The position numbers were made by a program, and so were the translations under genes. Source: a virus. From it: DNA of 33,810 nt. The notes below the pieces were generated by a model. The model did no database searches. It was given only the letters and a program-made list of their open reading frames with translations, and was not told the origin of the DNA. Below, piece after piece: positions 10,563 through 33,810 of the stretch; position 1 is the stretch's first letter; the number at the start of each line of letters is the position of its first letter. Location of the stretch: IMG/VR virus record IMGVR_UViG_3300020404_000757, positions 1-33,810 of that record. One strand, given 5' to 3'.

Positions 10563-10593
10563 TCAGTTGTGCCGATGATGTCAAATAGTGGCA

Positions 10594-10601
10594 CATAAAT
10601 A
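10594..10601 (+). promoter_or_regulatory. T4-late-like promoter box before the epimerase gene
   Basis: CATAAATA, one base from consensus, lies in the 59-base gap 10563-10621. Unlike the boxes at 165, 1765 and 6964, it leaves a 20-base interval before the ATG, and that interval holds a strong Shine-Dalgarno AAGGAGAT (10611-10618). A weak inverted repeat (TGTGCC at 10568-10573, GGCACA at 10590-10595) borders the box on its upstream side. Confidence 0.5.
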
Positions 10602-10621
10602 TTTTCCAACAAGGAGATATA

Positions 10622-12198: not shown

Positions 12199-13349
12199 AC
12201 CCAAATGATTTGTTAACGCACAAACGATTTGACGTCGTTGTCAAATATATGTATGCGAAGAATCTAACAAGTGAATTTTATAAAAGTGTCTACAAAGAAC
12301 ATCTCAGAATTTGGAATGGCTTTAAGGAAGGAAACCCAAAAAAGAATGGGTTTGAAGAATTTGACAATGCCTTTAAATCAATTATTAATAACACAGTCGA
12401 TGAACCAGTTCCAGTAAATCCTGACGGACATATTGCCAATGGTGCTCATAGATTAGCCGCCGCATTATATCATCAAAGACCTATTAATACTAGAAGTACA
12501 AATTCAGATGAAAATTATCCCATTGAAGCCGATTATAGAGTCTTTTTAAATAAAGGGTTACATAAGCATATGTTACAAAGAACTGCACTGGAGTATGCTA
12601 AACTAAAATCCAATACTCATGTTATATGTTTGTTTCCTATTGCCCATTCACGCTTTGATGAAGTAATCAATATAATTAAGAAACATTCTAATATATTTTA
12701 CAAATCATCAGAAGTAATAAATCGCACAGGACAACTTGGTTTAATAAAAGAAATATATCTTTCTGATGGTTGGGCAAGTGAAAAAGGAATAATGAAAAAA
12801 TGTAAACAGTGTTTCAGAGGAAATAACAATGTAACCTTTCTGTTAATAGATGCACAAAATCTTGAAATTGTAAAAGAAATGAAAAAAGAGATAAGAGCAT
12901 TATTCAAAGTTGGTAATCATTCTGTTCACATTAATGACTATCATGAAGACACAATTCGCATAGCAAAAACAGTATTCAATGACAATAGCCTACATTTTCT
13001 TAATAATAGGAAAAACGTTTTGTTTCCCAATTACAAAAAACTAATGACTAACATTAAACCAAATGACAATGAAATAATCACAGGTTCAACAGTCCTATCA
13101 TTATATGGATTACGAGACTGTAAAGATATAGACAAAATTTATTACAATAATCCACCTGCTGACTCTCATAATCAATATGTGGGAACACTGTATAAATTGA
13201 CTCTAGATGATATTTTTAATAATCCAAAGCATCATCTATATTACAATGGATTTAAATATGTTTCTCTTGAAGTTATAAAAAATATGAAGCAAATACGGAA
13301 TGAACCAAAAGATATTATAGACGTAAGATTAGCAGAGCAAATAAAATGA
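12195..13349 (+). CDS. Multidomain protein: ParB-like N-terminus and nucleotidyltransferase-like C-terminus
   Basis: This 384-aa protein is not a glycosyltransferase I know. Residues 75-92 read NPDGHIANGAHRLAAALY, which resembles the ParB/sulfiredoxin-fold signature NG.HRL.A found in small ParB-like domains. A middle region of about 140-270 has CLFPIAHSRFDEVINII and a HEDTIRIAKTVF segment. Near the C-terminus IITGSTVLSLYGLRDCKDIDKI (from residue 294) resembles the GS and DxD pattern of nucleotidyltransferase-fold or kinase-like enzymes. The gene overlaps both neighbours by 4 bases. A role in activating or transferring a group to the glycan is a guess. Confidence 0.55.
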   Translation: MNPNDLLTHKRFDVVVKYMYAKNLTSEFYKSVYKEHLRIWNGFKEGNPKKNGFEEFDNAFKSIINNTVDEPVPVNPDGHIANGAHRLAAALYHQRPINTRSTNSDENYPIEADYRVFLNKGLHKHMLQRTALEYAKLKSNTHVICLFPIAHSRFDEVINIIKKHSNIFYKSSEVINRTGQLGLIKEIYLSDGWASEKGIMKKCKQCFRGNNNVTFLLIDAQNLEIVKEMKKEIRALFKVGNHSVHINDYHEDTIRIAKTVFNDNSLHFLNNRKNVLFPNYKKLMTNIKPNDNEIITGSTVLSLYGLRDCKDIDKIYYNNPPADSHNQYVGTLYKLTLDDIFNNPKHHLYYNGFKYVSLEVIKNMKQIRNEPKDIIDVRLAEQIK

Positions 13350-14164
13350 AAAATTTAATTTATCAAGTGTGGGCTGGTGAGATGAGACCTGGTTGTAGAT
13401 ACAGTGAAAAACTTTTTAGACAATATGCACAAAGCATTGGAGCAGATTACAGATTAGATATAGATCCTAATATTGCCAGCAAGTATGTTAAAGGTAAAAA
13501 CGGTATGTACTTTGAATGGTTGAACCCTATGTTAGATGATTCATTTTTAGAATACGACAAAGTCTGTGTAATTGATTTAGATGTTTTTCCAGTCGAGAAT
13601 TTGACAGCAAATATTTTTGACGAGCCAATTAAAGACTTTGGCATCTGTACTGAACCCTTCCAAGGCAAGTATCGCGAATCTACAACTATAGGTAAAAACA
13701 TAAACAAGAAAAGTGATGAACGTTGGGCTCAAGCAATTAAATCAAAATACGGTGCGACTATGCCTCGAGATTCCGACGGTCATCTCAAAGTATATAATGC
13801 TGGTATGGTGATGTTCACAAAGAAAGGTATGCAACTCGCTAGAGAAAAATTTGTACCCTTTAAAGAATATATGCATTATATTAAATCTTGTGGCTTAGGT
13901 AGATTCTATAGAGTGGATCAAAATTATTTTCATGCCATGATGGTGACGCATAGTGAATACACTGAAATGCATAATGGATGGAATAATTATATCCACGGTG
14001 TTTGTGGTCCTTTAGCATTACAAGATACAATTAATGATAGTAGGGACACATCTACTAAATTTGTTCATGTTCAATTGCGTGGTGCAGATTATTTTAGTGA
14101 CGAACAACTATATCATATTACAAATTCAGCAAGATCAAAATGGAACGTGGAAGGTATATCATGA
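13346..14164 (+). CDS. GT-A type glycosyltransferase (VIDLDVF motif)
   Basis: This 272-aa protein opens with MKNLIYQVWAGEMRPG, close to the opening of the gene product at 9900. It has CVIDLDVFPVENL at residues 74-86 (DxD), KVYNAGMVMFTKKG as acceptor-side segment, MHNGWNNYIHG, and KFVHVQLRGADYF near the C-terminus with the putative metal-binding His. The order of these segments is the same as in the genes at 9124 and 9900. Starts in an ATGA overlap. Substrate unknown. Confidence 0.75.
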   Translation: MKNLIYQVWAGEMRPGCRYSEKLFRQYAQSIGADYRLDIDPNIASKYVKGKNGMYFEWLNPMLDDSFLEYDKVCVIDLDVFPVENLTANIFDEPIKDFGICTEPFQGKYRESTTIGKNINKKSDERWAQAIKSKYGATMPRDSDGHLKVYNAGMVMFTKKGMQLAREKFVPFKEYMHYIKSCGLGRFYRVDQNYFHAMMVTHSEYTEMHNGWNNYIHGVCGPLALQDTINDSRDTSTKFVHVQLRGADYFSDEQLYHITNSARSKWNVEGIS

Positions 14165-14721
14165 TAGTAGCAAATCTTAAAGAAGCAACAAACATCACTG
14201 AGTATCAAACTTCGTTAAAACAACAATTACAAAAAGCACATGGCGAACAATACACAGATTATCTAGACGAAATTTCTAGATTAACAAAAAATTGTAAATC
14301 TTATAGAGAAATAGGTACGTTTCAGGGTGCTTCTACATCTACAGCATTGATGAACAATATCCCATATGTTGAAACTATTGACCTTGACTTTGTTCATATT
14401 AATCCACATAAACATATTTTTGAAACACACGCACAACAAAATCAAATCGAATTTAAAATGATTCAGACTGATTCACTGAAATACAACATAGATAAAAAAA
14501 CTGAAGTGCTTTTAGTAGACGGATATCATAACGCAAAACACGTGGCAAAAGAATTAAACAAGTATGCTCCGTGGACAGCACACACTATTGTTCTACATGA
14601 TACGACACTATTTCCAAGATTATGGAAAACTGTAAATAATTTTTTATCGTCTAATCAAGACTGGAAACTTGTTTATAGGCACACAGTGAATGCAGGCTAC
14701 ACGGTATTAGGAAAGAAATAA
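14161..14721 (+). CDS. Class I SAM-dependent methyltransferase
   Basis: I place the start at 14161, where ATGA overlaps the previous stop and GGAAGG lies about 8 bases upstream, giving 186 aa; an in-frame ATG at 14140 is less likely. The motif REIGTFQGASTST (residues 49-61) is a class I SAM-binding loop, with TIDLDFVHINP as the acidic strand and VLLVDGYHNAKHVAKEL as motif following it. The layout resembles the Methyltransf_24 or cephalosporin-hydroxylase-like group seen in glycan clusters. The next gene is of the same type, so the two form a tandem pair. Confidence 0.72.
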   Translation: MIVANLKEATNITEYQTSLKQQLQKAHGEQYTDYLDEISRLTKNCKSYREIGTFQGASTSTALMNNIPYVETIDLDFVHINPHKHIFETHAQQNQIEFKMIQTDSLKYNIDKKTEVLLVDGYHNAKHVAKELNKYAPWTAHTIVLHDTTLFPRLWKTVNNFLSSNQDWKLVYRHTVNAGYTVLGKK

Positions 14722-14722
14722 A

Positions 14723-15325
14723 ATGAGTTTAAAAGAAATTTTTATAAAAAACAAATGCGATAAAGCAACAAAGCATAGATATTATGAATTGTATCAACAA
14801 GATTTTGACAAATTTAAAAATGATCAAATTAACATATTAGAAATTGGCACTTTCAAAGGTGAAAGCACTCAATCCTGGCTTGATTATTTTTCCCAAGCAA
14901 AAATTTACACAGCAGACACATTTGAAAGAGTGGCTCCAGAGAAAGTTCCTGCTTTAAAAAATAATCGTGTAAAATGGTTCAAGGTTGATAGTACTTCAAC
15001 AAACTGTAAAGCAAATTTTAAAAATCTAAATATTCAATTCGATTTGATCATTGATGATGGACTACACACACCTGAAGGTCAGAGATTGACCTTTGAAAAT
15101 TTGATTGACTTTTTAAAACCTACAGGTTCATATTATATTGAAGATGTATGGATGCTGGACAAAGGAAACAATATGTCACACTGGTGGGTTAAAAAACATC
15201 CAAAAGACTTTACCATAGAAAAATATAACCAATTAATACAATCAATTAATAAGTTCAAAGTTACAGAATATGATTATAGCAGTAAAAAAATTCCTGACAG
15301 TTTTATTTTAAAAATTAACAAATGA
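14723..15325 (+). CDS. Class I SAM-dependent methyltransferase, second of a tandem pair
   Basis: This 200-aa protein shows ILEIGTFKGESTQSW at residues 38-52 as SAM-binding loop, TADTFER as the acidic strand, FDLIIDDGLHTPEGQ with metal-binding-like acidic and His residues, and SYYIEDVWML. It resembles its neighbour in the EIGTF.G.ST core and in the D..H segment. This DDG.H pattern is typical of the cephalosporin-hydroxylase-like sugar methyltransferases. It probably methylates a sugar of the phage-made glycan. It ends in a 4-base overlap with the next gene. Confidence 0.75.
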   Translation: MSLKEIFIKNKCDKATKHRYYELYQQDFDKFKNDQINILEIGTFKGESTQSWLDYFSQAKIYTADTFERVAPEKVPALKNNRVKWFKVDSTSTNCKANFKNLNIQFDLIIDDGLHTPEGQRLTFENLIDFLKPTGSYYIEDVWMLDKGNNMSHWWVKKHPKDFTIEKYNQLIQSINKFKVTEYDYSSKKIPDSFILKINK

Positions 15326-15990
15326 AAGCATTTATAATAACATTAATGAATGACGCATGGAGTTTATCCTATGCTGAACGCTGTTTACAGAGTATACAAG
15401 ACACAGAAAGTGATATAGAAGCCACACTATTCGACGCCACTACTCCACAAACAATTTTTCCTGTTGCGTGGACTTGGCCCACAGGCAAAAAAATTACTTG
15501 TCCTAAAACAAATTTATTTCTAAAACCATACAAAACTTATGACAATAACAAACGCATAGCCGCGGCACAAAGTCATTTTAGATTATGGCAAATGTGTGCG
15601 TCTATGAACGAACCTATTATGATATTAGAACATGACGCTTTATTCACACGTAAATTTACAGCACAAGAAACGTCTGCTAAAGTTGTAGGAGCATACAGTA
15701 TAAATGACCCAAAAGGTGCAACGTTTAAATCAAAAGATTATTCAAACAAATTAAAAGAAGGATTTAATGAGGTGCCTTGGGTTGCACCTGAAAATATTCC
15801 GCAAGGACTGCCAGGTCATTCTGCTTATGTAATAACTCCTTGGGCGGCAAGAGACATAATACAAAAGCAAGACAGTATAGGTTGGTGGCCCAACGACGCC
15901 ATAATGTGTAAGCAGTTGTGTAATTGGTTGTATGTTTACAAACCATTCTTTACCAAAACACAAGGCATCAAATCTACTACTTCCTTATAA
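15322..15990 (+). CDS. Glycosyltransferase family 25-like protein (third copy)
   Basis: This 222-aa protein has AFIITLMND at the N-terminus, RIAAAQSHFRLWQMC at residues 78-92, MILEHDALFTRK at 100-111 and GLPGHSAYVITPWAARDII, which is the GT25 order seen also at 6978 and 8546. The DQ.W loop found in those is here a longer insert. The ATGA overlap with the methyltransferase upstream suggests coupled translation. Substrate unknown. Confidence 0.82.
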   Translation: MKAFIITLMNDAWSLSYAERCLQSIQDTESDIEATLFDATTPQTIFPVAWTWPTGKKITCPKTNLFLKPYKTYDNNKRIAAAQSHFRLWQMCASMNEPIMILEHDALFTRKFTAQETSAKVVGAYSINDPKGATFKSKDYSNKLKEGFNEVPWVAPENIPQGLPGHSAYVITPWAARDIIQKQDSIGWWPNDAIMCKQLCNWLYVYKPFFTKTQGIKSTTSL

Positions 15991-15997
15991 ATTTACC

Positions 15998-16005
15998 AAT
16001 AAATA
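15998..16005 (+). promoter_or_regulatory. T4-late-like promoter box inside the island
   Basis: AATAAATA, identical to the box at 6964, lies in the short gap after the GT25 gene, in a CCAATAAATATTT context shared in part with the 6964 site (CCAATAAATATTC). It is 16 bases from the ATG at 16022, so a short leader of about 10 bases is expected. Confidence 0.5.
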
Positions 16006-16021
16006 TTTCAAACAATACACC

Positions 16022-16702
16022 ATGAAAATATACGTAGGATATGACACAAGAGAAGACATTGCCTATCAAGTGTGTGAACATTCAATATACAGCAATTCTT
16101 CAGATGCTCAAGTTGTTCCATTGAATCAACAATCATTGCGACAAGATAAATGGTATTGGAGAGAATTAGACAAACTAGCCTCAACAGAATTTACATTCAC
16201 AAGATTTTTAATACCAGCACTAGAAAATTATAAAGGTTGGGCATTGTTTTGTGATTCCGATATAGTTTTTACAACTGATATAAAAGAGTTATTTGACCAA
16301 GCAGATGACAAGTATGCTGTAATGTGTGTCAAACATGACTACACACCCAAGCCAGGAATCAAAATGGACGGACAAAAACAAACTGTGTATCCAAGAAAAA
16401 ATTGGAGTTCTGTTGTGCTATACAACTGTGGACACAAATCAAATGAAAAATTATCAGTAGATTTAGTAAACAATCCAAACTATGATGGAGCATATTTTCA
16501 CAGATTTAGTTGGTTAAAAGATGAAGAAATAGGCACACTGTCGCATGAATGGAATTGGCTTGTGGGTTGGTACAAAGAGCCACAAGATGGTGAGCCGAAA
16601 GCCTTACACTACACTGAAGGCGGCCCGTGGTTCAAAAATTATCGTAATTGCGAATACGGTGATGTTTGGAAAAAATATCTCAACACCATGATGAGCAAAT
16701 GA
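16022..16702 (+). CDS. GT8-like glycosyltransferase
   Basis: The start at 16022 (MKIYVGYDTRED) is chosen because it opens a clean beta strand and lies after the late box; an in-frame ATG at 15932 would lie inside the upstream gene. The 226-aa protein has ALFCDSDIVF at residues 74-83 (DxD), SSVVLYNCGH, LSHEWNWLVGW and ALHYTEGGPWFKNY near the C-terminus, which matches the GT8 pattern of a metal-binding His and Gly before PW. Similar proteins are common in marine T4-like phages from memory. Substrate unknown. Confidence 0.8.
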   Translation: MKIYVGYDTREDIAYQVCEHSIYSNSSDAQVVPLNQQSLRQDKWYWRELDKLASTEFTFTRFLIPALENYKGWALFCDSDIVFTTDIKELFDQADDKYAVMCVKHDYTPKPGIKMDGQKQTVYPRKNWSSVVLYNCGHKSNEKLSVDLVNNPNYDGAYFHRFSWLKDEEIGTLSHEWNWLVGWYKEPQDGEPKALHYTEGGPWFKNYRNCEYGDVWKKYLNTMMSK

Positions 16703-16703
16703 T

Positions 16704-17501
16704 ATGCACTACTATTTTGATGGGGAAGATCAGATATTACAACATTGGAACCAAGGATTAGGTAGCCATTATCTTCCTTACGAAGAAATAAAGAAAACAT
16801 CACTAGATAACACAGTAAGTTTTAGAAGTTTAGCCAAAAGAAAAATAATAAGAGACTGTAAACAATCCGGTAGAACTTTTTATTATATTGATACAGGATA
16901 TGTTGGAAATCTTATTAAAACAAAATTATATCATAGAGTAGTTAAAAATGACGTACAACATAGCACAGTGTTTGACGCCCCAGACGATCGTTGGCGTAAA
17001 ATACAATCACGAAGTCCGGAATTGGAATTTGTAGAGTGGCGTAAAAATCATAAAGGCAAAATTTTACTTGTAACTCCAAGTGAAAAGCCTTGCAAGTTTT
17101 ATAACATAGACAGAGATCGTTGGGTCGCAGATACAATAGAAACATTGAAGAAACACACTGATAGAGAAATAATTGTAAGAGACAAAGGTAAAAGGCATGA
17201 AAGAGTTGGCGAAGGTAGTGTGCCTAAATATCTAATAAAAGAAAAAATATATGCAACTGTAACTTATCAATCTATTGCGGCAATAGAGAGTGTGTGCGTA
17301 GGAGTACCTGCTTTTACAATGGAAAAAACTGCGGCTGACAGTGTTACATCTAAAGATTTAAGTAAAATAGAAACACCTTTTTATCCAGATAGAGATCAAG
17401 TACACAAATGGCAACATTGGTTAGCATACTGCCAATATCATGTAAGTGAACTTGGTTCCGGAGAAGCAAGTAGGATTATGGAGAGATACAAATTGTTATG
17501 A
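16704..17501 (+). CDS. GT-B-like glycosyltransferase family member A
   Basis: This 265-aa protein belongs to a paralogous family with the genes at 17498, 19268 and 32753. It has GKILLVTPSE, DRWVADTIETLKKHTDREIIVRDKGKR and IYATVTYQSIAAIESVCVGVPAFTME, which correspond position by position to the others. The last segment resembles the donor-binding part of GT-B enzymes, where a Ser/Gly-rich loop follows VV.. and the E.. G.P motif. The acceptor and donor are unknown. It shows no DxD motif. Confidence 0.6.
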   Translation: MHYYFDGEDQILQHWNQGLGSHYLPYEEIKKTSLDNTVSFRSLAKRKIIRDCKQSGRTFYYIDTGYVGNLIKTKLYHRVVKNDVQHSTVFDAPDDRWRKIQSRSPELEFVEWRKNHKGKILLVTPSEKPCKFYNIDRDRWVADTIETLKKHTDREIIVRDKGKRHERVGEGSVPKYLIKEKIYATVTYQSIAAIESVCVGVPAFTMEKTAADSVTSKDLSKIETPFYPDRDQVHKWQHWLAYCQYHVSELGSGEASRIMERYKLL

Positions 17502-18445
17502 TAAATGTTGTAGCCTACATGAAGGTTATTCCTCCTGGGAATAAAAAACCACAAAAGCCTTTAATAATAAAAAACTTTATCGATGGTGTTAATGCCTGCG
17601 GAGACAAAGGAGTAATAAGCAATTCTTGGCAGTTAATACCTGCAGATGTTTCTGTATTACAAGGATTTGTACATCAGCAACCTCAAAAACATAGACATCT
17701 TATGTTAAGAAAAACTGTGTTTGAACAACAGCAAAAACGAAACAAACGCACTATGATTGTAGACTCTAGTTTATTTTTGTATGCTGATCCCAAGCAATCA
17801 AAAAATTATTTACGATATGGTTATGATGGAATTTTTCCTAACACAGCAGAATATTGTTGGGACAATCCAGATCCACAACGTTGGGAAGTAATTAAAAAAG
17901 ATTTAGGTATAGATTTAAAACCATGGAGATTGAGTGGAGGAAAATATATTTTAGTTTGTTGTCAAAGAGATGGTGGCTGGAGCATGGACGGCTTAAAAGT
18001 AAATGTTTGGTTACAACACGTGATTGAACAAATTAGAAAATTTACAAAAAAAGAAATAAGAATTAGATTTCACCCTGGTGACAAAGCATCATCGCAATGG
18101 GCATCACTTGTGAGACAATGGATAAACAGTGGACAGCCAAAATATCAAAATATTGAAATAAGTGGTGCAAAAAATCTTATAGATGAATTTGCACTTGCTC
18201 ATGCGGTAGTTGGTCATAACTCTAGTCCTACTGTTGCTTCTGTGATTGAAGGTATCCCAACACTAGTTACTGATCCAGAGAGAGCACAGATAAACGGAGT
18301 CAATCAAGTTAAATGGGAAGACTTAGATTCACCTACTCCGTATGACAGAGAATTATGGATTAGAAGACTTGCACAAATACATTGGACACTAGATGAAGTA
18401 AAATCAGGATTGGCATGGAAACATTTAAGGAAGTATGTCAAATGA
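17498..18445 (+). CDS. GT-B-like glycosyltransferase family member B
   Basis: This 315-aa protein, the longest of the four paralogues, has KPWRLSGGKYILVCCQRDGGW, VIEQIRKFTKKEIRIRFHPGDK and LAHAVVGHNSSPTVASVIEGIPTLVTD. The HP and NSS...E.IP pattern is like that of capsule and CDP-glycerol type GT-B transferases. Its start overlaps the previous stop by 4 bases and its stop lies in an ATGA with the next gene. The clear internal match to the other paralogues is the evidence; the biochemical role is inferred. Confidence 0.65.
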   Translation: MINVVAYMKVIPPGNKKPQKPLIIKNFIDGVNACGDKGVISNSWQLIPADVSVLQGFVHQQPQKHRHLMLRKTVFEQQQKRNKRTMIVDSSLFLYADPKQSKNYLRYGYDGIFPNTAEYCWDNPDPQRWEVIKKDLGIDLKPWRLSGGKYILVCCQRDGGWSMDGLKVNVWLQHVIEQIRKFTKKEIRIRFHPGDKASSQWASLVRQWINSGQPKYQNIEISGAKNLIDEFALAHAVVGHNSSPTVASVIEGIPTLVTDPERAQINGVNQVKWEDLDSPTPYDRELWIRRLAQIHWTLDEVKSGLAWKHLRKYVK

Positions 18446-19278
18446 TTACAACACTTACAACTTTTCATAAACCTGGATTAGACTTATATGGACAAAGATT
18501 CATAGATAGTTTTGCTAAAAATGTAGATAAAAAGATTAAATTATTGGTGTACGCAGAAAACTGTACACCTGTAAATCCAGATAATAAACAAATAACAATA
18601 ATAGATGCTAAAGAACTTATAAAATTAAATCAATTTAAATCACGTTGGGGTAATGTTCCTAAAGCAAATGGTAAATGTCCTTTCCCAGAAAAGCGACCAA
18701 GAGATCATCATAAAGAATTTAAATGGGACGCAATAAGATTTGCCAACAAAGTTTATGCTGTGTTTGATGCTGTAACAAGAACAGATGATCAGTGGACAGT
18801 ATGGATTGATGCAGATACATTTGTACATAGTCCTATATCTTACGAACAATTTGAAAATTTACTCCCAAATGATAAATGGATAACTTTTGTAGGTAGAGGT
18901 AAAGGTTCACAAACATGGCCCGAGTGCGGTTTCTATGGTTTAAACACGCAGACCGAAACTTGTAAAAGATTCTTATCTGAATTTGAACGTATGTATGAAG
19001 ATGCTGACAACGGTATTTTTAAATTAGACGAATGGCATGATAGTTTTGTGTTTGGAAAAATATTAAATCAACTAACTCCTTTAGATAAAAATTTTTATGA
19101 TTATTCAACAGGCATATACAACAAAACTGCTAAAACAGGAGGCGGTGGTCATCCTTTAATTAATTCAGTATTGGGAAATTATTTTGATCACATGAAAGGA
19201 GCACGTAAAACAAAAGGTAAAAGTCAAAAAAAAGATTTGATATCCAATCGTGCTGAATCTTACTGGAATGAAGTTTAG
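18442..19278 (+). CDS. GT-A type glycosyltransferase (WIDADTF motif)
   Basis: I choose the ATG at 18442, which overlaps the previous stop as ATGA, giving 278 aa; an in-frame ATG at 18415 would add nine residues inside the upstream gene. VWIDADTFVHSP at residues 120-131 is a DxD motif of the kind seen in hypothetical marine phage transferases, followed by CGFYGLN and a DEWHDSFVFGKIL helix. A KFKWDAIRF-like KEFKWDAIRFANKVYAV helix precedes the DxD, as expected for GT-A enzymes. Substrate unknown. Confidence 0.72.
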   Translation: MITTLTTFHKPGLDLYGQRFIDSFAKNVDKKIKLLVYAENCTPVNPDNKQITIIDAKELIKLNQFKSRWGNVPKANGKCPFPEKRPRDHHKEFKWDAIRFANKVYAVFDAVTRTDDQWTVWIDADTFVHSPISYEQFENLLPNDKWITFVGRGKGSQTWPECGFYGLNTQTETCKRFLSEFERMYEDADNGIFKLDEWHDSFVFGKILNQLTPLDKNFYDYSTGIYNKTAKTGGGGHPLINSVLGNYFDHMKGARKTKGKSQKKDLISNRAESYWNEV

Positions 19279-20104
19279 TCTATTCACAAACAATGGTCCT
19301 CTGAACAGTCCTTTAGTCTGGGAGGCAGTCAAAGCAGGTCTTAATAGATTAGGACACAGTGTTGATGAAAATAATTTAGATACAGATATACCTGTAATCT
19401 GGTCACTGCTATGGAATGGCAGAATGATGAAAAACAAATCTATTTGGAACACATTTAGACAACAACATAGAAAAGTGCTTGTTATAGAAGTAGGTGGCAT
19501 CAAAAGAAATATAACATGGAAAGTAGGAATAAACGGAATCAACAGAGCAGGAGAGTTTGGTCCGTTGAATAATAATGACTCAAGAGTAAAACAGTTTGAA
19601 TTATCATTGCGTCCTTGGCGTACTGAAGGAGATCATATATTATTGTGTTTACAACACGACAAAAGCGAACAGTGGGCAAGTATGCCTCCTTTAGAAAAAT
19701 ACGTCAAAGACACTGTTGAAAAAATACGACAATATACAGATAGAAAAATTGTTGTGAGACCTCATCCTAGATGTCCTTTAAAAACTATGCCTGTGTTAGA
19801 CAACGTAGGTTATGAAATACCAAGACAGATTAAGAATACATATGATGATTTTGACCTAAATTTTGCCAATGCTTGGGCAGTGATAAGTCACAGCAGTAAC
19901 CCAGGAATTCATGCTGTATTGAATGGAATACCTGCTTTTGTCAGTGAAGAAAGCCTAGCATATGATGTAGGAAACTCTGATTTCAGCACCATTGCCAGCC
20001 CAAAGACCCCCGATAGACAGCAATGGCTGAATGATTACACACATACTGAGTGGACTATTGAAGAAATAGCACAAGGCATTCCTTTTTCCAGATTGACTTT
20101 TTAA
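19268..20104 (+). CDS. GT-B-like glycosyltransferase family member C
   Basis: The start at 19268 (MKFSLFTNNG) is preferred; an ATG at 19250 is also in frame. The 278-aa protein has RPWRTEGDHILLCLQHD, VEKIRQYTDRKIVVRPHPRCP and NAWAVISHSSNPGIHAVLNGIPAFVS, the same three blocks as the genes at 17498 and 32753. The RPHPRCP segment is close to the HP motif of polysaccharide GT-B enzymes. The last codons of this gene contain the -35 box of the downstream early promoter (20093-20098). Confidence 0.65.
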   Translation: MKFSLFTNNGPLNSPLVWEAVKAGLNRLGHSVDENNLDTDIPVIWSLLWNGRMMKNKSIWNTFRQQHRKVLVIEVGGIKRNITWKVGINGINRAGEFGPLNNNDSRVKQFELSLRPWRTEGDHILLCLQHDKSEQWASMPPLEKYVKDTVEKIRQYTDRKIVVRPHPRCPLKTMPVLDNVGYEIPRQIKNTYDDFDLNFANAWAVISHSSNPGIHAVLNGIPAFVSEESLAYDVGNSDFSTIASPKTPDRQQWLNDYTHTEWTIEEIAQGIPFSRLTF

Positions 20105-20127: not shown

Positions 20128-21411
20128 ATGCGTTCAATTACCATAGAAGAGTGTTTAGAATTAATGGCAGGATTTTCTGCCAAAGCGGTTACGCCAGCAT
20201 TTATTCTATTAGACCGTGATAAAAAAATTATTACAGATATTGCTAAAAAAGTTTATAAAGGCACAGCATTAACTGATAGACAACTAGATGCTGTAAAAAA
20301 AATATTAATTACCAGATATAAATCACAATTTAGAATGAGGGGAATTGATTTAGAAAACAGTGTTAACAATCTAAGACAACCTTTAAGACATTTAGACAGA
20401 AGCGAATACATAAGAATTGAAGAAGGATCTAATTATTTAGAACCGTATTGGTCAGGGTTTACTCCAAGCAAAGTTGTGGTAACAAGATTTCCATTCAACA
20501 TGACTTACTCAAAACAGATTACCGAAGTAAGAAAATTACTAGGACCTTTAAACAGTAGATTTTATTCACAAAAATTAAAAGACAAATATATTTTGCCTTA
20601 CACAGAAAAAATTGTACATAGACTGATTGGTAAATTTAAAAATAAAATAAAAGACATTGATCCTATTTTATTAGATGTATATAATGAATGTGAAAAAATT
20701 TACAAAAAAGAAAGTGAATACGTTCCAGGAATCTACAATTACAAAATACAAAATAGTTCAGAAACAGTTACAAATTACTATCAAGAATATTTTGGTGATC
20801 CAGTAAATGAAAATTTATATCTTTATTTTGACAGAAAAGAAAAAATGGGATTGAAATATTTTGATAAGGATATGTTAAAAGAATCAAGTAAAGATTTATC
20901 TCCTTTGAGTACCGCAATATTACACAGAACATATGCCCGAATTAATTTAGATACAAAAAAATGGCCCTACGAACAAATTATTAATACAATAAGTGAACTA
21001 CGACGTTTTCCTTTATTGGTGGTATTATCTGGTACAACCGAAAAAGATAGTTTGAAAGATTTACACAAAACACATAAACTGTTTAAAAATATTGTTGATG
21101 ATAAAGATGTTAGTGTATTAGTAAGATGTAAAAATGGAACGACTTTTGGTAAAGAATTTAACGATTACATTAAAGACAACAGATTAAATAATTCACTTGC
21201 GAAAAGTACAAAAATAGTGTATATTACAAGTAAGAAGATTCCAAAGCCTTTGCTAACATCTGAATGGGAACCTGAAGCAGTACTAATTGGAGACAGTACC
21301 AGAAGTTATACAAAGGTTGACAAATATATTGGCACCATTGATTTACAATTACAAATTAATGGACAAGACAGTTATTGGAATCAAATCCATGTTGGAGCAG
21401 ACACTATATGA
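20128..21411 (+). CDS. Unknown early protein upstream of uvsW
   Basis: This 427-aa protein has no motif I recognise. The N-terminal 60 residues (ALTDRQLDAVKKIL) look helical; the middle is rich in Lys and Tyr; the C-terminal third has FPLLVVLSGTTEKDSLKDLHK, VSVLVRCKNGTTFGKEF and KIVYITSKKIPKPLL, alternating strands and helices like a degenerate RecA or Rossmann fold, without P-loop or DEAD box. It is first in the operon with UvsW, overlapping it by 4 bases, and has its own promoter, which suggests an early DNA-metabolism role. Inference only. Confidence 0.7.
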   Translation: MRSITIEECLELMAGFSAKAVTPAFILLDRDKKIITDIAKKVYKGTALTDRQLDAVKKILITRYKSQFRMRGIDLENSVNNLRQPLRHLDRSEYIRIEEGSNYLEPYWSGFTPSKVVVTRFPFNMTYSKQITEVRKLLGPLNSRFYSQKLKDKYILPYTEKIVHRLIGKFKNKIKDIDPILLDVYNECEKIYKKESEYVPGIYNYKIQNSSETVTNYYQEYFGDPVNENLYLYFDRKEKMGLKYFDKDMLKESSKDLSPLSTAILHRTYARINLDTKKWPYEQIINTISELRRFPLLVVLSGTTEKDSLKDLHKTHKLFKNIVDDKDVSVLVRCKNGTTFGKEFNDYIKDNRLNNSLAKSTKIVYITSKKIPKPLLTSEWEPEAVLIGDSTRSYTKVDKYIGTIDLQLQINGQDSYWNQIHVGADTI

Positions 21412-22865
21412 GATGTAAAATTGTAATCACAGATGAAGTCAATGTAAAGATTGAAGGATTACCTGTGGATGTCCGCAGAAAAATTGCTAACAAATTTAAA
21501 TTTGCTGTTCCTTATGCTCGTTATCTTCCTCAATATAAACTAGGACGCTGGGATGGTAAAGTTGGTTTCTTTGGTTTAGGTGGTAACGGTTATGTGAATC
21601 ATTTAGATAAGATTATAGAATATCTTCACGAATCTGGAGTTGAGATAGAAGAAGTTAATGATAAAAGAGAAAAATTTGACTTAACATTTGATCAAGTAGA
21701 CAAAAATTATTTTAGTGCTAAGACTTGGCCCAAAGGACATTTATGCGAAGGTCAACCAATTGAACTGCGTGATTATCAAGTCGATGTTATCAACAATTTT
21801 ATTAAAGAACCACAAAGTTTACAAGAAGTTGCCACAGGCGCTGGAAAAACTATTATCACAGCGGCACTGAGTAGCATTTGCGAAAAGTTCGGACGTACTT
21901 TAGTAATTGTTCCAAACAAAGGACTTGTAACTCAAACTGAAGAAGACTATATTAACGTAGGATTAGACGTTGGTGTTTACTTTGGAGATAGAAAAGAATT
22001 AAATCGTACACACACAATTTGTACTTGGCAAAGTTTAAACGTGTTAGATAAAAAAGGTAAAGCAGGTGAATCTGTTTTTACATTAACAGATTTTTTAGAT
22101 GGTGTTAAAACTGTTATCATTGACGAAGTACACCAAGCAAAAGCAGAAGTATTGAAAAAATTATTAACACAGCATCTTAAAAATGCTCCGGTTAGATGGG
22201 GATTAACGGGCACTATTCCAAAAGAACAATTTGAATTTCAAAGTATATTAGCAAGTATTGGTCCTGTTGTAAATCAAATTTCAGCAAAAGAATTACAAGA
22301 TAAAGGCGTATTATCTAAATGTCATGTGAATGTTGTACAATTAATAGACACAGAAGTTTATAAAAATTATCAAGAAGAATTAAAATATCTTGTGACCAAC
22401 GACAAAAGATTAGAATACCTTGGCAAATTAATTAACAAAATAAAAGACAGCGGAAATACTCTTGTGTTAATAGATAGACTTACAGCGGGTAAACGACTTG
22501 CTGAGATCATTGATGACAGTGTCTTCATACAAGGAGAAACAAAGTTAGCAGATAGAAAAGAACAATATGATGAGATAAGCGATTCAGATAACAAAGTGAT
22601 TATAGCAACTTATGGTGTAGCATCAGTTGGTATAAACATACCAAGAATATTCAATTTAATTTTGATAGAGCCGGGCAAGTCATTTGTACGTGTTATACAA
22701 TCAATTGGAAGAGGTATACGTAAAGCCAAAGACAAAGACTTTGTTCAAATATGGGACTTAACATCTAGTTGTAAATTTGCTAAAAGACATTTAACGCATA
22801 GAAAAAAATTTTACAAAGAAGCAAACTATCCGTTTACGATAGAGAAAGTAGATTGGACGAAATGA
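21408..22865 (+). CDS. uvsW: UvsW, SF2 DNA helicase
   Basis: This helicase unwinds R-loops and remodels branched DNA in T4, shutting off origin replication and aiding recombination. The start at 21408 (MRCKIVITDEVN, ATGA overlap) is chosen over the in-frame ATG at 21375 and gives 485 aa, near T4 UvsW (about 503). It has RDYQ at residues 121-124 (Q motif), Walker A ATGAGKT at 142-148, a DEVH box at 239-242, LTGT at 266-269 and QSIGRGIRK as motif VI. An N-terminal domain of about 110 residues precedes the helicase core, as in T4. Confidence 0.93.
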   Translation: MRCKIVITDEVNVKIEGLPVDVRRKIANKFKFAVPYARYLPQYKLGRWDGKVGFFGLGGNGYVNHLDKIIEYLHESGVEIEEVNDKREKFDLTFDQVDKNYFSAKTWPKGHLCEGQPIELRDYQVDVINNFIKEPQSLQEVATGAGKTIITAALSSICEKFGRTLVIVPNKGLVTQTEEDYINVGLDVGVYFGDRKELNRTHTICTWQSLNVLDKKGKAGESVFTLTDFLDGVKTVIIDEVHQAKAEVLKKLLTQHLKNAPVRWGLTGTIPKEQFEFQSILASIGPVVNQISAKELQDKGVLSKCHVNVVQLIDTEVYKNYQEELKYLVTNDKRLEYLGKLINKIKDSGNTLVLIDRLTAGKRLAEIIDDSVFIQGETKLADRKEQYDEISDSDNKVIIATYGVASVGINIPRIFNLILIEPGKSFVRVIQSIGRGIRKAKDKDFVQIWDLTSSCKFAKRHLTHRKKFYKEANYPFTIEKVDWTK

Positions 22866-27412: not shown

Positions 27413-27970
27413 ATGTTTGATATAGATATAGATTTTGCTGATAGAAATGTGTTGTTAGAAAAACTAAAGCACAGAATTGCTAAATTAGAAAATGGCAAGA
27501 AGCATAATACAGGCGTATACTTCACAGAGATTCCGCATGATCCAGCAACAAACTTATCTACTTTAGATTATGAAACTGCTGAAGATAGAAACTATTTTAA
27601 GATTGACTGCTTAAATGTAAGCATATACAAAGATGTTAAAGACCACGATCATTTGAATAAACTTATGACAACAAAGCCTATGTGGGAATTACTTGAAGCA
27701 AAAGATTTCAGTGACCAAGTGTTTCATTTAAATGGACACAATGAAATACTGAAGAAACTTAAACCCAAGAATATAGAACAATTGGCGGCTGTTTTGGCAA
27801 TCATAAGACCTAGCAAAAGATATCTACTGAATAAAGATTGGGATACAATAATGAAAGAAGTTTGGGTTAAACCAACTGATGACAAATACTTCTTTAAGAA
27901 ATCACACGCAACATCATACGCATTCGCAGTTGTGGTACACATGAATCTTATTTGCGAACAACTAACTTGA
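27413..27970 (+). CDS. Miniature DnaE-like (C-family polymerase) protein
   Basis: The 185-aa protein begins MFDIDIDFADR, which matches the catalytic PDFDVDF..R motif of DnaE (Asp5 and Asp7 at the positions of E. coli D401/D403). HNTGVYFTEIP fits the DnaE HAGGVVI segment, and FKIDCLNV at 62-69 fits VKFDFLGL with Asp65 at the third catalytic Asp. VFHLNGHNEILKKLKP, IIRPSK and FKKSHATSYAF follow in the same order as DnaE's FQLE, RPGP and NKSHSAAYAL. About 90 residues between the Asp motifs are missing, so activity is uncertain. The gene is last in the operon. Confidence 0.7.
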   Translation: MFDIDIDFADRNVLLEKLKHRIAKLENGKKHNTGVYFTEIPHDPATNLSTLDYETAEDRNYFKIDCLNVSIYKDVKDHDHLNKLMTTKPMWELLEAKDFSDQVFHLNGHNEILKKLKPKNIEQLAAVLAIIRPSKRYLLNKDWDTIMKEVWVKPTDDKYFFKKSHATSYAFAVVVHMNLICEQLT

Positions 27971-28336
27971 TTACTTAGGTTTTCGGACTAATTGAACTGA
28001 TTTTCTCTTGCTTCTTTTCATAGCAAGATTGTTAAGACTTGTTACAGGACCTATTTTTACACTGACATCTTTGGTATTCATCATCATTAAAACGTCCTTG
28101 AATTTCATTAATTCTTTCCTTAGAAAGATGCCAATTGGGATCATTCTGTTGCTTTCCCACCACCACGTTTGACATAAACCCATAAATTTTTCTCTAGCAT
28201 TCACATGAATGTCTTCATATACATACATCGAGGTAATGGAGTTGTCTTGGTTGTTAATCACACCAACGTACTCTTTTCCACCGTATTCGACGACCGATAT
28301 GAACGGGAAGTTCTTTTCTATGTCGTTTAACAGCAT
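27971..28336 (-). CDS. Lone minus-strand conserved phage protein
   Basis: This 121-aa protein is the only credible gene on the minus strand. It has EKFMGLCQTWWWESNRMIPIGIFLRKELMKF and GPVTSLNNLAMKRSKRKSVQLVRKPK, a basic tail that suggests nucleic-acid binding. I recall similar proteins in cyanophages and pelagiphages, function unknown. Its stop codon abuts the stop of the convergent DnaE-like gene with no base between. The start codon at 28334-28336 has no visible Shine-Dalgarno sequence upstream. Confidence 0.8.
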   Translation of the reverse strand: MLLNDIEKNFPFISVVEYGGKEYVGVINNQDNSITSMYVYEDIHVNAREKFMGLCQTWWWESNRMIPIGIFLRKELMKFKDVLMMMNTKDVSVKIGPVTSLNNLAMKRSKRKSVQLVRKPK

Positions 28337-29183: not shown

Positions 29184-30188
29184 ATGAATATTGTGCTTGA
29201 CGTTTTACAAACTTATCTTCCTTCCAAAAGAAAACAAACTCCTAGCGGTTGGTTGGCTTTTAATGCTCCTTGTTGTGAGCATAATGGTACAACACCAGAT
29301 ACAAGACAAAGAGGCGGACTGATAGCAAAAGCAGATGAAAGTGTAAGTTTTCATTGCTTTAATTGTGGATTCAAAACAAGTTGGAGATTAGGAAGAAACT
29401 TATCTTATAAAATGAAAAAATTTATGAGATGGTTAAATGTTCCCGATGATGTAATAACAAAACTAGCATTACAAGTTTTACAACACAAAACAGACGACAG
29501 TGGTTTTAAATCTATTGTTACACTGCCAAAATTTGTAATGAAACAGTTGCCACCTAAAGCAAAGCCAATACATGAATGGGCAACTTATAAAGATTTGGAA
29601 CCAGGTGGTGTTGATAAAGATTTATTTTCTGTAATGGAATACATTGCTAAAAGAAAATTAACACTAGATGATTATGATTTTTATTGGAGTCCTGAAGCAG
29701 GTTATAGAGATAGATTAATAATTCCATTTACGTATCAATCCAAAGTTGTTGGCTATACAGCAAGAAAAGTTGTTGAAAGCAAAGTAAAGTATTTGTCAGA
29801 GCAACAACCAGGATATGTTTTTAACACAGACGCTCAAGATGATGATAGAAAATACATTGTGGCTGTAGAAGGTCCCATTGATGCTATTGCCATAGATGGT
29901 GTAGCACTTTTAGGAAGTGAGGTCAAAGACCAACAAACAGCACTTGTAAACAGTTTAGGTAAACACGTGATTGTGGTTCCTGATAGAGATGAAGCAGGAC
30001 AAAAATTAGTTTATGATGCGATGGAATCAGGCTGGAGTGTGAGTATGCCTGAATGGAGTCAAGATATCGGAGATGTAAACGATGCTGTGTGTAAATATGG
30101 TAGGCTTCACACATTATACACAATAATTAAAAATGCTGAAGATTCACAACTTAAAACTAAACTGAGGATGAAAAAATGGTTCGCATAA
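29184..30188 (+). CDS. gp61: DNA primase (gp61-like)
   Basis: This 334-aa protein makes RNA primers for the replisome. It has an N-terminal zinc-binding pattern (Cys30, Cys31, His33 then Cys58, Cys61 in HCFNCGF), RDRLIIPF at about 175-182, and a TOPRIM domain with VAVEGPIDAIAIDG (Glu229) and VVPDRDEAGQK (Asp267, Asp269). The length matches T4 gp61 (about 342 aa). It starts at a predicted leaderless promoter, and its end overlaps a 44-aa gene. It lies upstream of gp41, its helicase partner. Confidence 0.92.
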   Translation: MNIVLDVLQTYLPSKRKQTPSGWLAFNAPCCEHNGTTPDTRQRGGLIAKADESVSFHCFNCGFKTSWRLGRNLSYKMKKFMRWLNVPDDVITKLALQVLQHKTDDSGFKSIVTLPKFVMKQLPPKAKPIHEWATYKDLEPGGVDKDLFSVMEYIAKRKLTLDDYDFYWSPEAGYRDRLIIPFTYQSKVVGYTARKVVESKVKYLSEQQPGYVFNTDAQDDDRKYIVAVEGPIDAIAIDGVALLGSEVKDQQTALVNSLGKHVIVVPDRDEAGQKLVYDAMESGWSVSMPEWSQDIGDVNDAVCKYGRLHTLYTIIKNAEDSQLKTKLRMKKWFA

Positions 30189-30317: not shown

Positions 30318-31328
30318 ATGATAATTTGGGGAGTAACAGGAAACAATCACGATGCCAGTCTGGCTGTCATGGAATGGCGAGTAGCAGGACTAACAGATCA
30401 CTATCATTTGAAATTAAAATGGGCAGGAATGTCTAAGGACTTCAGCGGTATACCTGGAGACCCTACACTTTGTCCTAAACTGATGGCAGAAGTAAGAGCA
30501 AATCCTAAATGGGCCTTCCCTGCCAAGATATATTTTTATGAAAAACCTTTCAAAAAAACTATGCGTCAATTGATAGCGGGTCAAGGTTGGAAATGGAAAG
30601 AAAACAATATTAAAAAGTTTTTAAGTAAAGCAGGAATACACAATGTACCAATTGAATACATAAATCATCATGAAAGTCATGCCGCATATGGATATTATAC
30701 TTCTCCATATAGAAATGCCGCAGTGGTTGTATTAGATAGTATAGGAGAGTTTGAAACTTTTACTATATGGCATGGACACGGTAACAAATTAGAAAAGAAA
30801 TACACACAAAGTTATCCGCACAGCATTGGTCTATTTTATTCAGCAATGACACAAAGAGTTGGTCTAAAAGCAAATGCAGAAGAACATAAGTTTGAACAAC
30901 TTGCCAAAAAAGGCAATTGGAGAAAGTATTACAGAATGTTTATGGAAGAATTAGTTGATACAAGAATGCCTTTCAAAACAAGAATTAATTTACACAGAGG
31001 TTGTAATTGGTGGAGACCAGAATTAAACACAGAACAAGATATGGCAGACATTGCCGCAACTACACAACACATTTTTGAACAAGTGTTGATGTGTGCTAGT
31101 TCATGGATACAAATGAATATCAAAACATCAAACATAATTTTGGTTGGTGGTTGTGCGTTAAACAAAACAGCAGTCACTAAATTGGAATCAGTTTGGGATG
31201 ACATATGGGTGCCAAAAAATCCTGGAGATCCAGGAAGTTGTATAGGTGCTGTTCTTGCCAAATATCATAAGCACATTGACAATTCAAACGAAATGTGGTA
31301 TAATAAGGACAATGGTAAAACAAAATAA
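30318..31328 (+). CDS. Carbamoyltransferase (NodU/TobZ family), N-terminal Kae1-like domain only
   Basis: This 336-aa protein opens MIIWGVTGNNHDASLAV with the HDAS motif of the family, has INHHESHAAYGYY at residues 115-127 with the metal-binding His residues, and VGGCALN near residue 275. These are signatures of NodU/TobZ O-carbamoyltransferases. Full-length enzymes have about 570 aa; here the YrdC-like C-terminal domain, which makes carbamoyl-adenylate in TobZ, is missing. The start has AGGAGAG upstream. The 3' end contains the gp41 promoter and overlaps the gp41 start by 17 bases. It may carbamoylate a sugar or nucleoside. Confidence 0.85.
   Translation: MIIWGVTGNNHDASLAVMEWRVAGLTDHYHLKLKWAGMSKDFSGIPGDPTLCPKLMAEVRANPKWAFPAKIYFYEKPFKKTMRQLIAGQGWKWKENNIKKFLSKAGIHNVPIEYINHHESHAAYGYYTSPYRNAAVVVLDSIGEFETFTIWHGHGNKLEKKYTQSYPHSIGLFYSAMTQRVGLKANAEEHKFEQLAKKGNWRKYYRMFMEELVDTRMPFKTRINLHRGCNWWRPELNTEQDMADIAATTQHIFEQVLMCASSWIQMNIKTSNIILVGGCALNKTAVTKLESVWDDIWVPKNPGDPGSCIGAVLAKYHKHIDNSNEMWYNKDNGKTK
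31276..31304 (+). promoter_or_regulatory. Perfect-consensus sigma70 promoter of gp41 inside the carbamoyltransferase gene
   Basis: TTGACA at 31276-31281, a 17-base spacer and TATAAT at 31299-31304 match the sigma70 consensus at all 12 positions. The gp41 ATG at 31312 is 7 bases after the -10 box, so the mRNA would have at most one untranslated base. AAGGA at 31305-31309 looks like a Shine-Dalgarno site, but it would lie upstream of the predicted start point, so it could help only transcripts from the upstream genes. The whole promoter lies in coding sequence. Confidence 0.85.
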
Positions 31329-32760
31329 AGATTATGGATATGAGATACAAAAACTGTATCTCGAAATGATGTTGGGTGACGCAGAAACGTTTGTGCGTTG
31401 TCAATCTATATTTGATCATTCATTGTTTGATAGAAAACTTCAAGAGACAGCAGACTTTGTTAACAAGTATGTGGCAGAATATAATTCATTGCCGACATAT
31501 GATATTGTAAACAAATCTTGTAATGTTAATTTAAAACAAGCAGAAAATTTAACAGAAGAGCATTTTACTTGGTTGTTAGATGATTTTGAAACTTTTGTTA
31601 GACATAAAAGTTTAGAAAGAGCAATATTGAAATCTGCTGATATGCTTGAAAAAGGTGAATATGGTCCAGTAGAAGAGTTGGTTAAAAAGGCTGTACAAAT
31701 AGGACTACACAAAGACATAGGTACAGATTACTTTGATGATCCAAAAGCAAGACTTATGGGACTGAAAAATCAAAATGGACAAGTCAGCACAGGCTGGGCA
31801 ACACTAGATAAAAAATTGTTTGGTGGATTCAACAAAGGTGAGTTGAATATATTTGCTGGTGGATCTGGTGCTGGTAAAAGTTTATTTCTTGCTAACTTAG
31901 GTTGTAATTGGGTGCTAAATGGATTGAATGTTGCTTATGTTTCATTTGAATTAAGTGAAGCACTTGTATCAATGAGATTAGATTCAATGCTAACAGATGT
32001 TCCTGCTAGAGAAATTTTCAAAGATTTAGATGGTGTAGAAATGAAAGTTAAATTGCTTGGTAAAAAAGCAGGTAAGTTTCAAATCAAATACATGGCAAGT
32101 GGTAAAAACGCAAACGACTTGAGAAGTTATATCAAAGAATATGAAATAAAAACAGGCACAAAATTAGATGTGATACTTGTAGATTATTTGGATCTTATGA
32201 TGCCTATCAGTAGAAAAGTATCGCCAAGTGATTTGTTTGTTAAAGACAAATTTGTATCTGAAGAATTAAGAAACTTATCAATGGAATTGAATGTTATCTT
32301 TGTTACAGCATCACAGTTGAATAGAGGTGCTGTTGAAGAAATAGAATTTGATCACTCGCATATATCTGGTGGTTTAAGTAAAATACAAACTGCTGACAAT
32401 GTGTTTGGTATATTCACAAGTAGAGCAATGAGAGAACGTGGTAGATATCAAATACAATTAATGAAAACAAGAAGTTCTAGCGGAGTTGGTCAAAAGATTG
32501 ATTTAGAATTTGATGTGGACAGTTTGAGAATAAGAGATCTTGCTGAAGATTCTGAATATCAAGAGTTTGATAAACGTAAGAGTACAATATATAATTCACT
32601 AAAAAAGACATCAACAGTTACTGAAAACGATGCTGAAGAACCAAAAGAACTTAAAGCACCAGACCCAACAAAAGGCGACACTGTTGGTCGTATCGAAACA
32701 GGCAACACTGACCAAACAAAGTTGAGGGACTTTTTAAAGAACCTTGATGGCGATGAATAA
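31312..32760 (+). CDS. gp41: Replicative DNA helicase (gp41-like, DnaB family)
   Basis: This hexameric helicase opens the fork and stimulates primase. I choose the start at 31312 (MVKQNKDYGYEIQKLY), because it follows the promoter and gives 482 aa, near T4 gp41 (475); an in-frame ATG at 31246 lies upstream of the promoter. It has Walker A GGSGAGKS at residues 183-190, LDVILVDYLDLM as Walker B, and TASQLNRGA, typical of DnaB. The last 60 residues are acidic and probably disordered. The stop overlaps the next gene. Confidence 0.94.
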   Translation: MVKQNKDYGYEIQKLYLEMMLGDAETFVRCQSIFDHSLFDRKLQETADFVNKYVAEYNSLPTYDIVNKSCNVNLKQAENLTEEHFTWLLDDFETFVRHKSLERAILKSADMLEKGEYGPVEELVKKAVQIGLHKDIGTDYFDDPKARLMGLKNQNGQVSTGWATLDKKLFGGFNKGELNIFAGGSGAGKSLFLANLGCNWVLNGLNVAYVSFELSEALVSMRLDSMLTDVPAREIFKDLDGVEMKVKLLGKKAGKFQIKYMASGKNANDLRSYIKEYEIKTGTKLDVILVDYLDLMMPISRKVSPSDLFVKDKFVSEELRNLSMELNVIFVTASQLNRGAVEEIEFDHSHISGGLSKIQTADNVFGIFTSRAMRERGRYQIQLMKTRSSSGVGQKIDLEFDVDSLRIRDLAEDSEYQEFDKRKSTIYNSLKKTSTVTENDAEEPKELKAPDPTKGDTVGRIETGNTDQTKLRDFLKNLDGDE

Positions 32761-33633: not shown

Positions 33634-33810
33634 ATGACTGATTTAGAAAATATACAAAGGCTCACTGAACGTTTTAAAAGGCAAATGCCCAACGGTGAAG
33701 TGTACCAACAAAGACTCGCAGAAGAATTTGAACTAATTCTTAAACAAAGATTCACAGAATATTTCTTAAAAATTTGTGACATCATAGACATCACATCAGA
33801 TTTAAAACAC
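33634..33810 (+). CDS. Start of a second DnaE-like protein (partial, 3' truncated by window)
   Basis: The frame opens with MTDLENIQRLTERFKRQMPNG and continues for 59 residues to the window end. The part VYQQRLAEEFELILKQRF and the following TEYFLKICDIIDITSD line up with the DnaE segment YDERLETELQVINQMGF, GYFLIVMEFIQWSKD, which lies just before the GPGRGSGAGS loop and the catalytic palm. If that loop and the DxD motif follow, this would be a C-family polymerase lacking the usual N-terminal PHP domain. The N-terminus is short, so the PHP domain is absent in any case. The rest is outside the window. Confidence 0.6.
   Translation, partial: MTDLENIQRLTERFKRQMPNGEVYQQRLAEEFELILKQRFTEYFLKICDIIDITSDLKH

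Follow-up and report, generated by a model that had tools for sequence, protein, structure and literature searches.

The window, a 33,810-nucleotide stretch of viral DNA (IMG/VR record IMGVR_UViG_3300020404_000757, positions 1 to 33,810), contains at 27413–27970 of the plus strand an open reading frame (ORF) that starts with ATG, ends with TGA and encodes a protein of 185 amino acids (MFDIDIDF...FKKSHATSYA). Residues 2–183 of this protein match phrog_11778 ("DNA polymerase", 197 positions) at 8.1e-59. On the basis of profile matches, homologues and a predicted model, we regard it as the putative C-terminal half of a split minimal DnaE and refer to it as the C-half.

Upstream of the C-half gene lie a DNA helicase identified by profile (phrog_16; 21408–22865, plus strand, in a listed ORF that starts at 21375), which we take to be UvsW-like, a gene whose product weakly matches a zinc finger, and one for a 2OG-Fe(II) oxygenase. 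Profiles identify two replication genes downstream, both on the plus strand: a Toprim DNA primase (phrog_47; 29184–30188) and a DnaB-type replicative helicase (31309–32760; the longest listed frame starts at 31246), presumably similar to T4 gp41. A primase or helicase is also annotated downstream of the C-half in six of the eight jumbo phage regions that we compared; the other two, XacN1 and RAS14, have no such annotation within the stretch examined.

Immediately after the C-half gene, and facing it, is a small convergent ORF (27971–28336, minus strand; phrog_11637 by profile). Judged by position, a convergent ORF of similar size occupies the matching place in all eight jumbo phage regions and in a 203-kb metagenomic contig (G038), with one extra ORF between it and the C-half in XacN1 and RAS14.

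The C-half derives from the palm and fingers of DnaE

The conserved blocks of the protein are colinear with those of DnaE, in the order that the first-pass annotation had described. By alignment, and all on the plus strand, the first catalytic strand D3-I-D5-I-D7 (27419–27433) places D3, D5 and D7 at E. coli D401, D403 and D405; H31..G34 (27503–27514) is the equivalent of DnaE GKHAGGV (E. coli H511 and G514); K63-x-D65 (27599–27607) aligns with K553/D555; the fingers motif R132-P133-x-K135 (27806–27817) places R132-P133 at R639-P640; and FKKSHATSY (27893–27919) is the equivalent of FNKSHSAAY, with H165 at H760. The three catalytic Asp of the palm are thus D3, D5 and D65. The first-pass annotation had numbered them 5, 7 and 65; all three are present and D65 was correct, but the first pair lies two residues earlier.

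The protein is strongly reduced relative to E. coli DnaE. The second and third catalytic Asp are 60 residues apart, compared with 152 in E. coli, a loss of 92 that agrees with the earlier estimate of about 90, and we take the DnaE thumb to lie in this lost stretch. From D65 to the KSHA-type motif, the C-half (65 to 165) is about 105 residues shorter than E. coli DnaE (555 to 760). Everything before E. coli ~400, including the PHP domain, and after ~780 is also missing. The GRGS dNTP-binding motif is absent from the 185 residues. The C-half is a C-terminal piece that has the Mg-binding Asp and the template-binding part and lacks other Pol III domains, such as PHP and a complete thumb. The tandem HhH, clamp-binding motif and OB domain, whose positions we take to follow the DnaE polymerase core, are also absent, as the C-half model ends at E. 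coli ~780. PMC3919608 likewise places these three regions after the polymerase core in DnaE.

Searches with the single C-half sequence are too weak to establish this relationship. The Pfam fingers domain matched at 7e-4, which falls short of its curated cut-off, the NCBIfam Pol III alpha model matched at 1.5e-4, far short of its cut-off, and the best PDB chain had an E of 3.6. The assignment to a known family is firm because of profile-profile and structure comparisons. A profile of 72 aligned C-half sequences, searched against PDB, retrieved two DnaE chains (E 0.0097 and 0.025); three of the aligned blocks followed the DnaE order, and one further block, which scored negatively, was stray. When the C-half profile was compared by hhalign with seven aligned DnaE proteins (one from E. 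coli, four from phages and two of the compact form), residues 27–134 matched with probability 90 and E 1.6e-6. Since significant C-family matches were found by both profile-profile and structure comparison, the DnaE-like identity first proposed for the protein holds.

An AlphaFold2 model of the C-half (mean pLDDT 94.1, pTM 0.84) superposes along its entire length on DnaE structures. VIA-align placed residues 1–185 on Taq 2hpi 461–837 (Z 9.8, 3.3 Å, 183 residues), Mtb 5lew 419–807 (Z 9.8, 3.4 Å, 183 residues) and E. coli 5fkw 401–780 (Z 8.3, 3.6 Å, 182 residues). For the E. coli chains the start of the VIA-align range is offset by two residues from the sequence alignment; Mtb and, judged by its known catalytic residues, Taq are in register. 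The top 13 rows comprised ten DnaE entries and three titled "DNA polymerase" (9qrn, 9qpc and 9qrl), which may be PolC; the first unrelated row followed at Z 3.5. The E-values of the PDB profile search and of Foldseek, whose best match was 6.7e-4, are modest. BFVD contained six matches at E ≤0.001 to proteins of 738–1176 amino acids (best 4.3e-5), of which those with names are DNA polymerases.

The C-half is one member of a large and conserved family of phage proteins whose origin lies in the palm and fingers of DnaE, the Pol III alpha subunit. A single-protein query of IMG/VR yielded 69 distinct loci, a query of INPHARED yielded 64 deposited phage records (in 63 of them at least 80% of the query was covered), and an alignment-based scan detected at least 571 relatives, from which we retained the best 80. 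The protein is 185–212 amino acids long wherever the contig end does not cut the gene. Twelve residues (D3, D5, D7, H31, G34, K63, D65, R132, P133, K135, H165 and Y169) are invariant in 72/72 aligned sequences and also in all 16 rows of a more diverse set. Among 190 complete frames, 141 of them distinct, DxDxD occurs in 141/141 distinct frames, with the stop codon 181–202 residues past its start, KxDxL in 134 and a HAxxY pattern in 138; since these motifs were part of some of the patterns used to collect the C-half and N-half frame sets, such counts are descriptive.

The gene at 27413–27970 is real and under purifying selection. Compared with relatives of 92–97% protein identity, its dN/dS was 0.011–0.035 in 14 rows, values that are rough because several rows are near-duplicates and dS exceeds 1 in most. 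Two further rows (L025 and L033) were dropped, as they contain a one-residue gap (549 bases, 184 residues) and had been compared without alignment. A scan of a genome collection returned 11 loci, all titled as MAGs, which are probably phage contigs in bacterial bins; this one scan gave no indication of a split form in cells. From the MAG titles, the lineage of the window is probably marine.

A complementary N-half is encoded elsewhere in related phages

A search of the eight named jumbo phages with PF07733 found one match above the family cut-off in each genome, away from the C-half gene and covering PF07733 positions 13–98, the part that contains GRGS; one of the eight had a second, insignificant match. 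The ORFs encode 169–183 amino acids from the first ATG and end in E-F-[LF] followed by one to three residues. We refer to this protein, which belongs to phrog_11127 (2e-47), as the N-half. It stops where the C-half starts; in 112/112 distinct N-half frames only 29–35 residues follow GxGRGS.

A profile of 74 N-half proteins matched E. coli DnaE 322–392 in the PDB profile search (E 0.0012), and hhalign gave probability 96 and E 1.3e-9. In a predicted model of the N-half from locus L152 (pLDDT 91.0, pTM 0.70), residues 70–173 superpose on Mtb 5lew 304–413 (Z 12.3, 2.1 Å) and residues 74–173 on E. coli 5fku 278–393 (Z 10.4); the best Foldseek match was 7.2e-3. Since the N-half covers DnaE 278–393 and the C-half ~400–780, the two halves tile DnaE with a gap at ~394–399. 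This complementarity supports the suggestion, one of three in the first-pass annotation, that the 185-residue protein is half of a split polymerase.

The two genes stand apart, as no locus that we fetched carried both halves, and no fused gene was found among these loci. One frame of the N-half set, L094, is 310 residues long because it was read as an open frame starting at the upstream stop, and we did not count it as a fusion, and two DxDxD matches inside N-halves are LDIDEF and were read as chance. Cyanobacterial DnaE has a split-intein arrangement. We dropped this arrangement for the phage halves, given the 29–35 residues after GRGS in the N-half and the 1–15 residues before the first Asp of the C-half (16 aligned proteins).

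The surroundings of the N-half gene vary. It lies near an annotated clamp loader in PBECO4 and Paride and, as judged by eye, is followed in locus L152 by clamp-loader-like and exonuclease-like ORFs. In Phosso no clamp loader is annotated in the 6 kb examined, where an AAA-ATPase and a GroES-like gene are found.

The two halves occur together in large relatives. Both, along with a family B polymerase, are present in all eight jumbo phages examined. A query of INPHARED with the N-half returned 528 records, and the 60 of these that were listed share 58 with the 60 listed of the 64 C-half records, four C-half records falling outside the comparison. Among the records with both halves is Sharanji, for which the recorded host is E. 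coli MG1655. Of the two unshared C-half records, MG592671 has an N-half by PF07733 search, and the other is PP728206 (109.5 kb). For two records from the N-half query, ON950054 and OR844993, there was no C-half among the records listed.

Within IMG/VR, we searched 22 contigs with a C-half, which include all six of at least 150 kb among the loci from the query and the alignment-based scan. An N-half was found in precisely those six and in none of the other 16, all shorter than 100 kb; matches in G005, G006 and G014 in this search proved to be the compact DnaE described below. In the converse search, 15 contigs were drawn from 80 N-half loci, including all ten of at least 150 kb. A C-half was present in eight, seven of which are among these ten. 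The remaining three large contigs (G025, G027 and G030; loci L094, L105 and L121; 156–359 kb) contain an N-half and gave no phrog_11778 match at E 10, with a profile that gives matches in 6 of 14 control genomes. Since a DnaB helicase was also not found in these three contigs and is present in 3/3 comparison contigs, sequence is likely to be missing from them; alternatively, they are a real exception.

Distance matrices of the N-half and C-half are correlated (r 0.67 over 23 pairs; 0/10,000 permutations as high), for which common descent alone would suffice as an explanation. A family B polymerase was detected in 5 of the 22 C-half contigs; a 166-kb contig with both halves (G008) had no family B match. 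Contigs with C-half relatives reach 203–365 kb, and the window is a 33.8-kb fragment in which no N-half was found.

A compact one-piece DnaE begins at the end of the window

The last 177 bases of the window (33634–33810, plus strand), on which the first-pass annotation was silent, encode the first 59 codons of a second C-family protein, with 93% identity to relatives; the window ends before its RGS motif. This gene starts ~5.7 kb downstream of the C-half. In relatives of the window it lies a gene or so past the helicase and encodes a one-piece DnaE of ~545 amino acids that matches PF07733 (8.7e-45) and the fingers domain (5e-16), has no PHP match in a profile search and by alignment keeps the DnaE RGS motif and the catalytic Asp.

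IMG/VR contains 55 loci with this compact DnaE. Its best match among deposited phages, at 36% identity, is an uncultured 484-kb record in which a family B polymerase is present and neither half was found. The C-half occurs in 9 of 12 compact-DnaE records tested; G001 has the C-half and no compact DnaE. Eight contigs of 22–88 kb, all fragments, have the C-half and compact DnaE, with no separate N-half found. All of these components are found together in G038, a linear metagenome assembly of 202,913 bases that encodes a C-half 48% identical to that of the window, an N-half of 175 amino acids, a compact DnaE of 566 amino acids and a family B polymerase of 886 amino acids, although the assembly may be chimeric. 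No special kinship between the C-half and the compact DnaE emerged, as hhalign of the C-half profile against a single compact DnaE gave a probability of 6. The frame of the compact DnaE in contig G039 (locus L309) has two TAG codons and one TAA codon inside the profile match, which may reflect recoding, damage or a frame artefact.

Discussion

From the alignments and predicted structures, the 185-residue protein is probably the C-terminal subunit of a two-gene minimal C-family polymerase whose N-half is supplied in trans; that it is a subunit of a split enzyme is slightly more secure. Since neither the window nor the 16 contigs shorter than 100 kb contain an N-half, the partner in the window's own phage is one that we infer. 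The first-pass annotation was right about DnaE identity, and a split half is the one of its proposals that the evidence supports; its first two Asp numbers are off by two, and its two other proposals, a minimal polymerase and an inactive regulator, fared less well.

How might such an enzyme work? In the C-half, the second portion of the DnaE palm would be combined with a shortened fingers domain; the protein would hold two metal ions through D3, D5 and D65 and also bind template. It would bind, non-covalently, an N-terminal subunit of ~175 amino acids that is encoded elsewhere in the genome and whose GxGRGS would hold the dNTP phosphates, the two halves together making up one nucleotidyltransferase active site of the Pol beta type. 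Synthesis by the pair may be short and distributive, as expected from the loss of PHP and most of the thumb and from an end that precedes the tandem HhH and clamp-binding regions.

One alternative is that the C-half is an inactive decoy or regulator that binds a partner of host Pol III, or its template, and slows host replication. The protein retains palm and fingers elements without the GRGS motif that it would need to bind dNTP on its own, as such a decoy might. However, the catalytic residues are invariant (D3, D5, D7, H31, K63, D65, R132 and H165 in 72/72), which a decoy would not need and which disfavors the inactive regulator first suggested, and all eight jumbo phages encode a complementary half with precisely the missing motif. 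Moreover, alpha binds epsilon through its PHP domain and beta and tau through its C-terminal regions, and these regions are absent from the C-half. We consider a decoy improbable.

It is just as improbable that the N-half has been lost in the lineage of the window, leaving the C-half as an accessory of the compact DnaE or the family B polymerase. The eight contigs with a C-half, a compact DnaE and no separate N-half, and the position of the compact DnaE gene ~5.7 kb downstream in the window, would fit this idea. However, those contigs are fragments, the 203-kb G038 has an N-half alongside its C-half, compact DnaE and family B polymerase, and the compact DnaE has an RGS motif and catalytic Asp of its own.

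A stand-alone minimal polymerase or nucleotidyltransferase that does not need the N-half is very hard to credit. Although all three catalytic Asp are present, the C-half starts at the first catalytic strand, and the triphosphate-binding motif and the helices preceding that strand are on the N-half; the term minimal polymerase, as first proposed, is at best true of the pair. That the gene is a decaying remnant of a former dnaE, to which its small size compared with DnaE might point, is scarcely conceivable given a dN/dS of 0.011–0.035 in 14 rows and the conservation of length and motifs over many loci.

If the C-half and N-half do form a polymerase, what would it do? Since the C-half gene lies near those for primase and helicase and, in some phages, the N-half gene lies near the clamp loader, the likeliest role is to extend primers or fill gaps alongside the family B replicase, although we would give this only an even chance. 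Somewhat more tentatively, some uncultured, probably marine T4-like phages related to the window may run three polymerase systems (a T4-type family B replicase, the split C-family enzyme and the compact C-family enzyme encoded near the helicase gene), which would divide the work at the fork into bulk synthesis, primer extension or gap filling, and bypass or repair. If this is true, few templated DNA polymerases would be as small as the split enzyme. A further question is why one or even two additional C-family enzymes are retained in phages that already have a family B replicase.

The split form is of a kind already known by prediction. For group 2.2 of the jumbo phages, whose genomes exceed 200 kb, PMC7824862 (Viruses 2021, 13:63) predicts a minimal Pol III alpha split into an N-terminal NTP-binding part and a C-terminal Mg- and template-binding part; the two genes lie far apart, and the phages also encode a family B polymerase. 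Its authors call this form previously unrecognised and propose it as a model for the ancestor of Pol III. By that description the two proteins are the same as those studied here, and Atu_ph07, which the paper names in group 2.2, is among our eight phages. To this we add an uncultured lineage, models of the two halves that tile DnaE, counts of their co-occurrence and, in some of these phages, the extra compact DnaE; what is apparently new is that the split kind extends to this lineage and that a compact PHP-less DnaE begins in the window. Among the open-licence papers searched, the split form is described only in PMC7824862, with no experiment on it and no description of its coexistence with a compact one-piece DnaE. 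PMC5259590 notes a truncated alpha-like protein of 172 amino acids, PMC6102473 lists an alpha subunit and PMC6892783 describes a family B polymerase in split form, with an intein.

With cellular DnaE and PolC the C-half shares the fold of palm and fingers, the three catalytic Asp and KH..G, RP and KSHA-type motifs. It differs in having no PHP, HhH, clamp motif, OB or C-terminal domain, in its strongly reduced thumb and fingers and in having the GS motif on another protein. Full-length phage DnaE proteins, such as those of Streptomyces phage Emaanora (1161 amino acids) and Vibrio phage VA-RY-3 (931 amino acids), are each encoded by one gene, whereas the family in the window, also C-family, uses two genes for ~170–210 amino acids each. 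The minimal polymerase of African swine fever virus belongs to family X and is encoded by a single gene; the likeness is one of analogy only. A replicase core of ~360 residues in two pieces, compared with 1,160 residues in E. coli, would show how little suffices for a C-family polymerase, and such a minimal pair would test the proposal of PMC7824862 on the ancestor of Pol III.

Finally, we note that genes of other kinds are interspersed in the replication region of the window. A carbamoyltransferase gene (30318–31328, plus strand; PF02543, 6.9e-31) lies between the primase and the helicase, and a long run of genes at 6978–20104 was judged by eye to be glycosyltransferase-like and sugar or methyl transferase-like.
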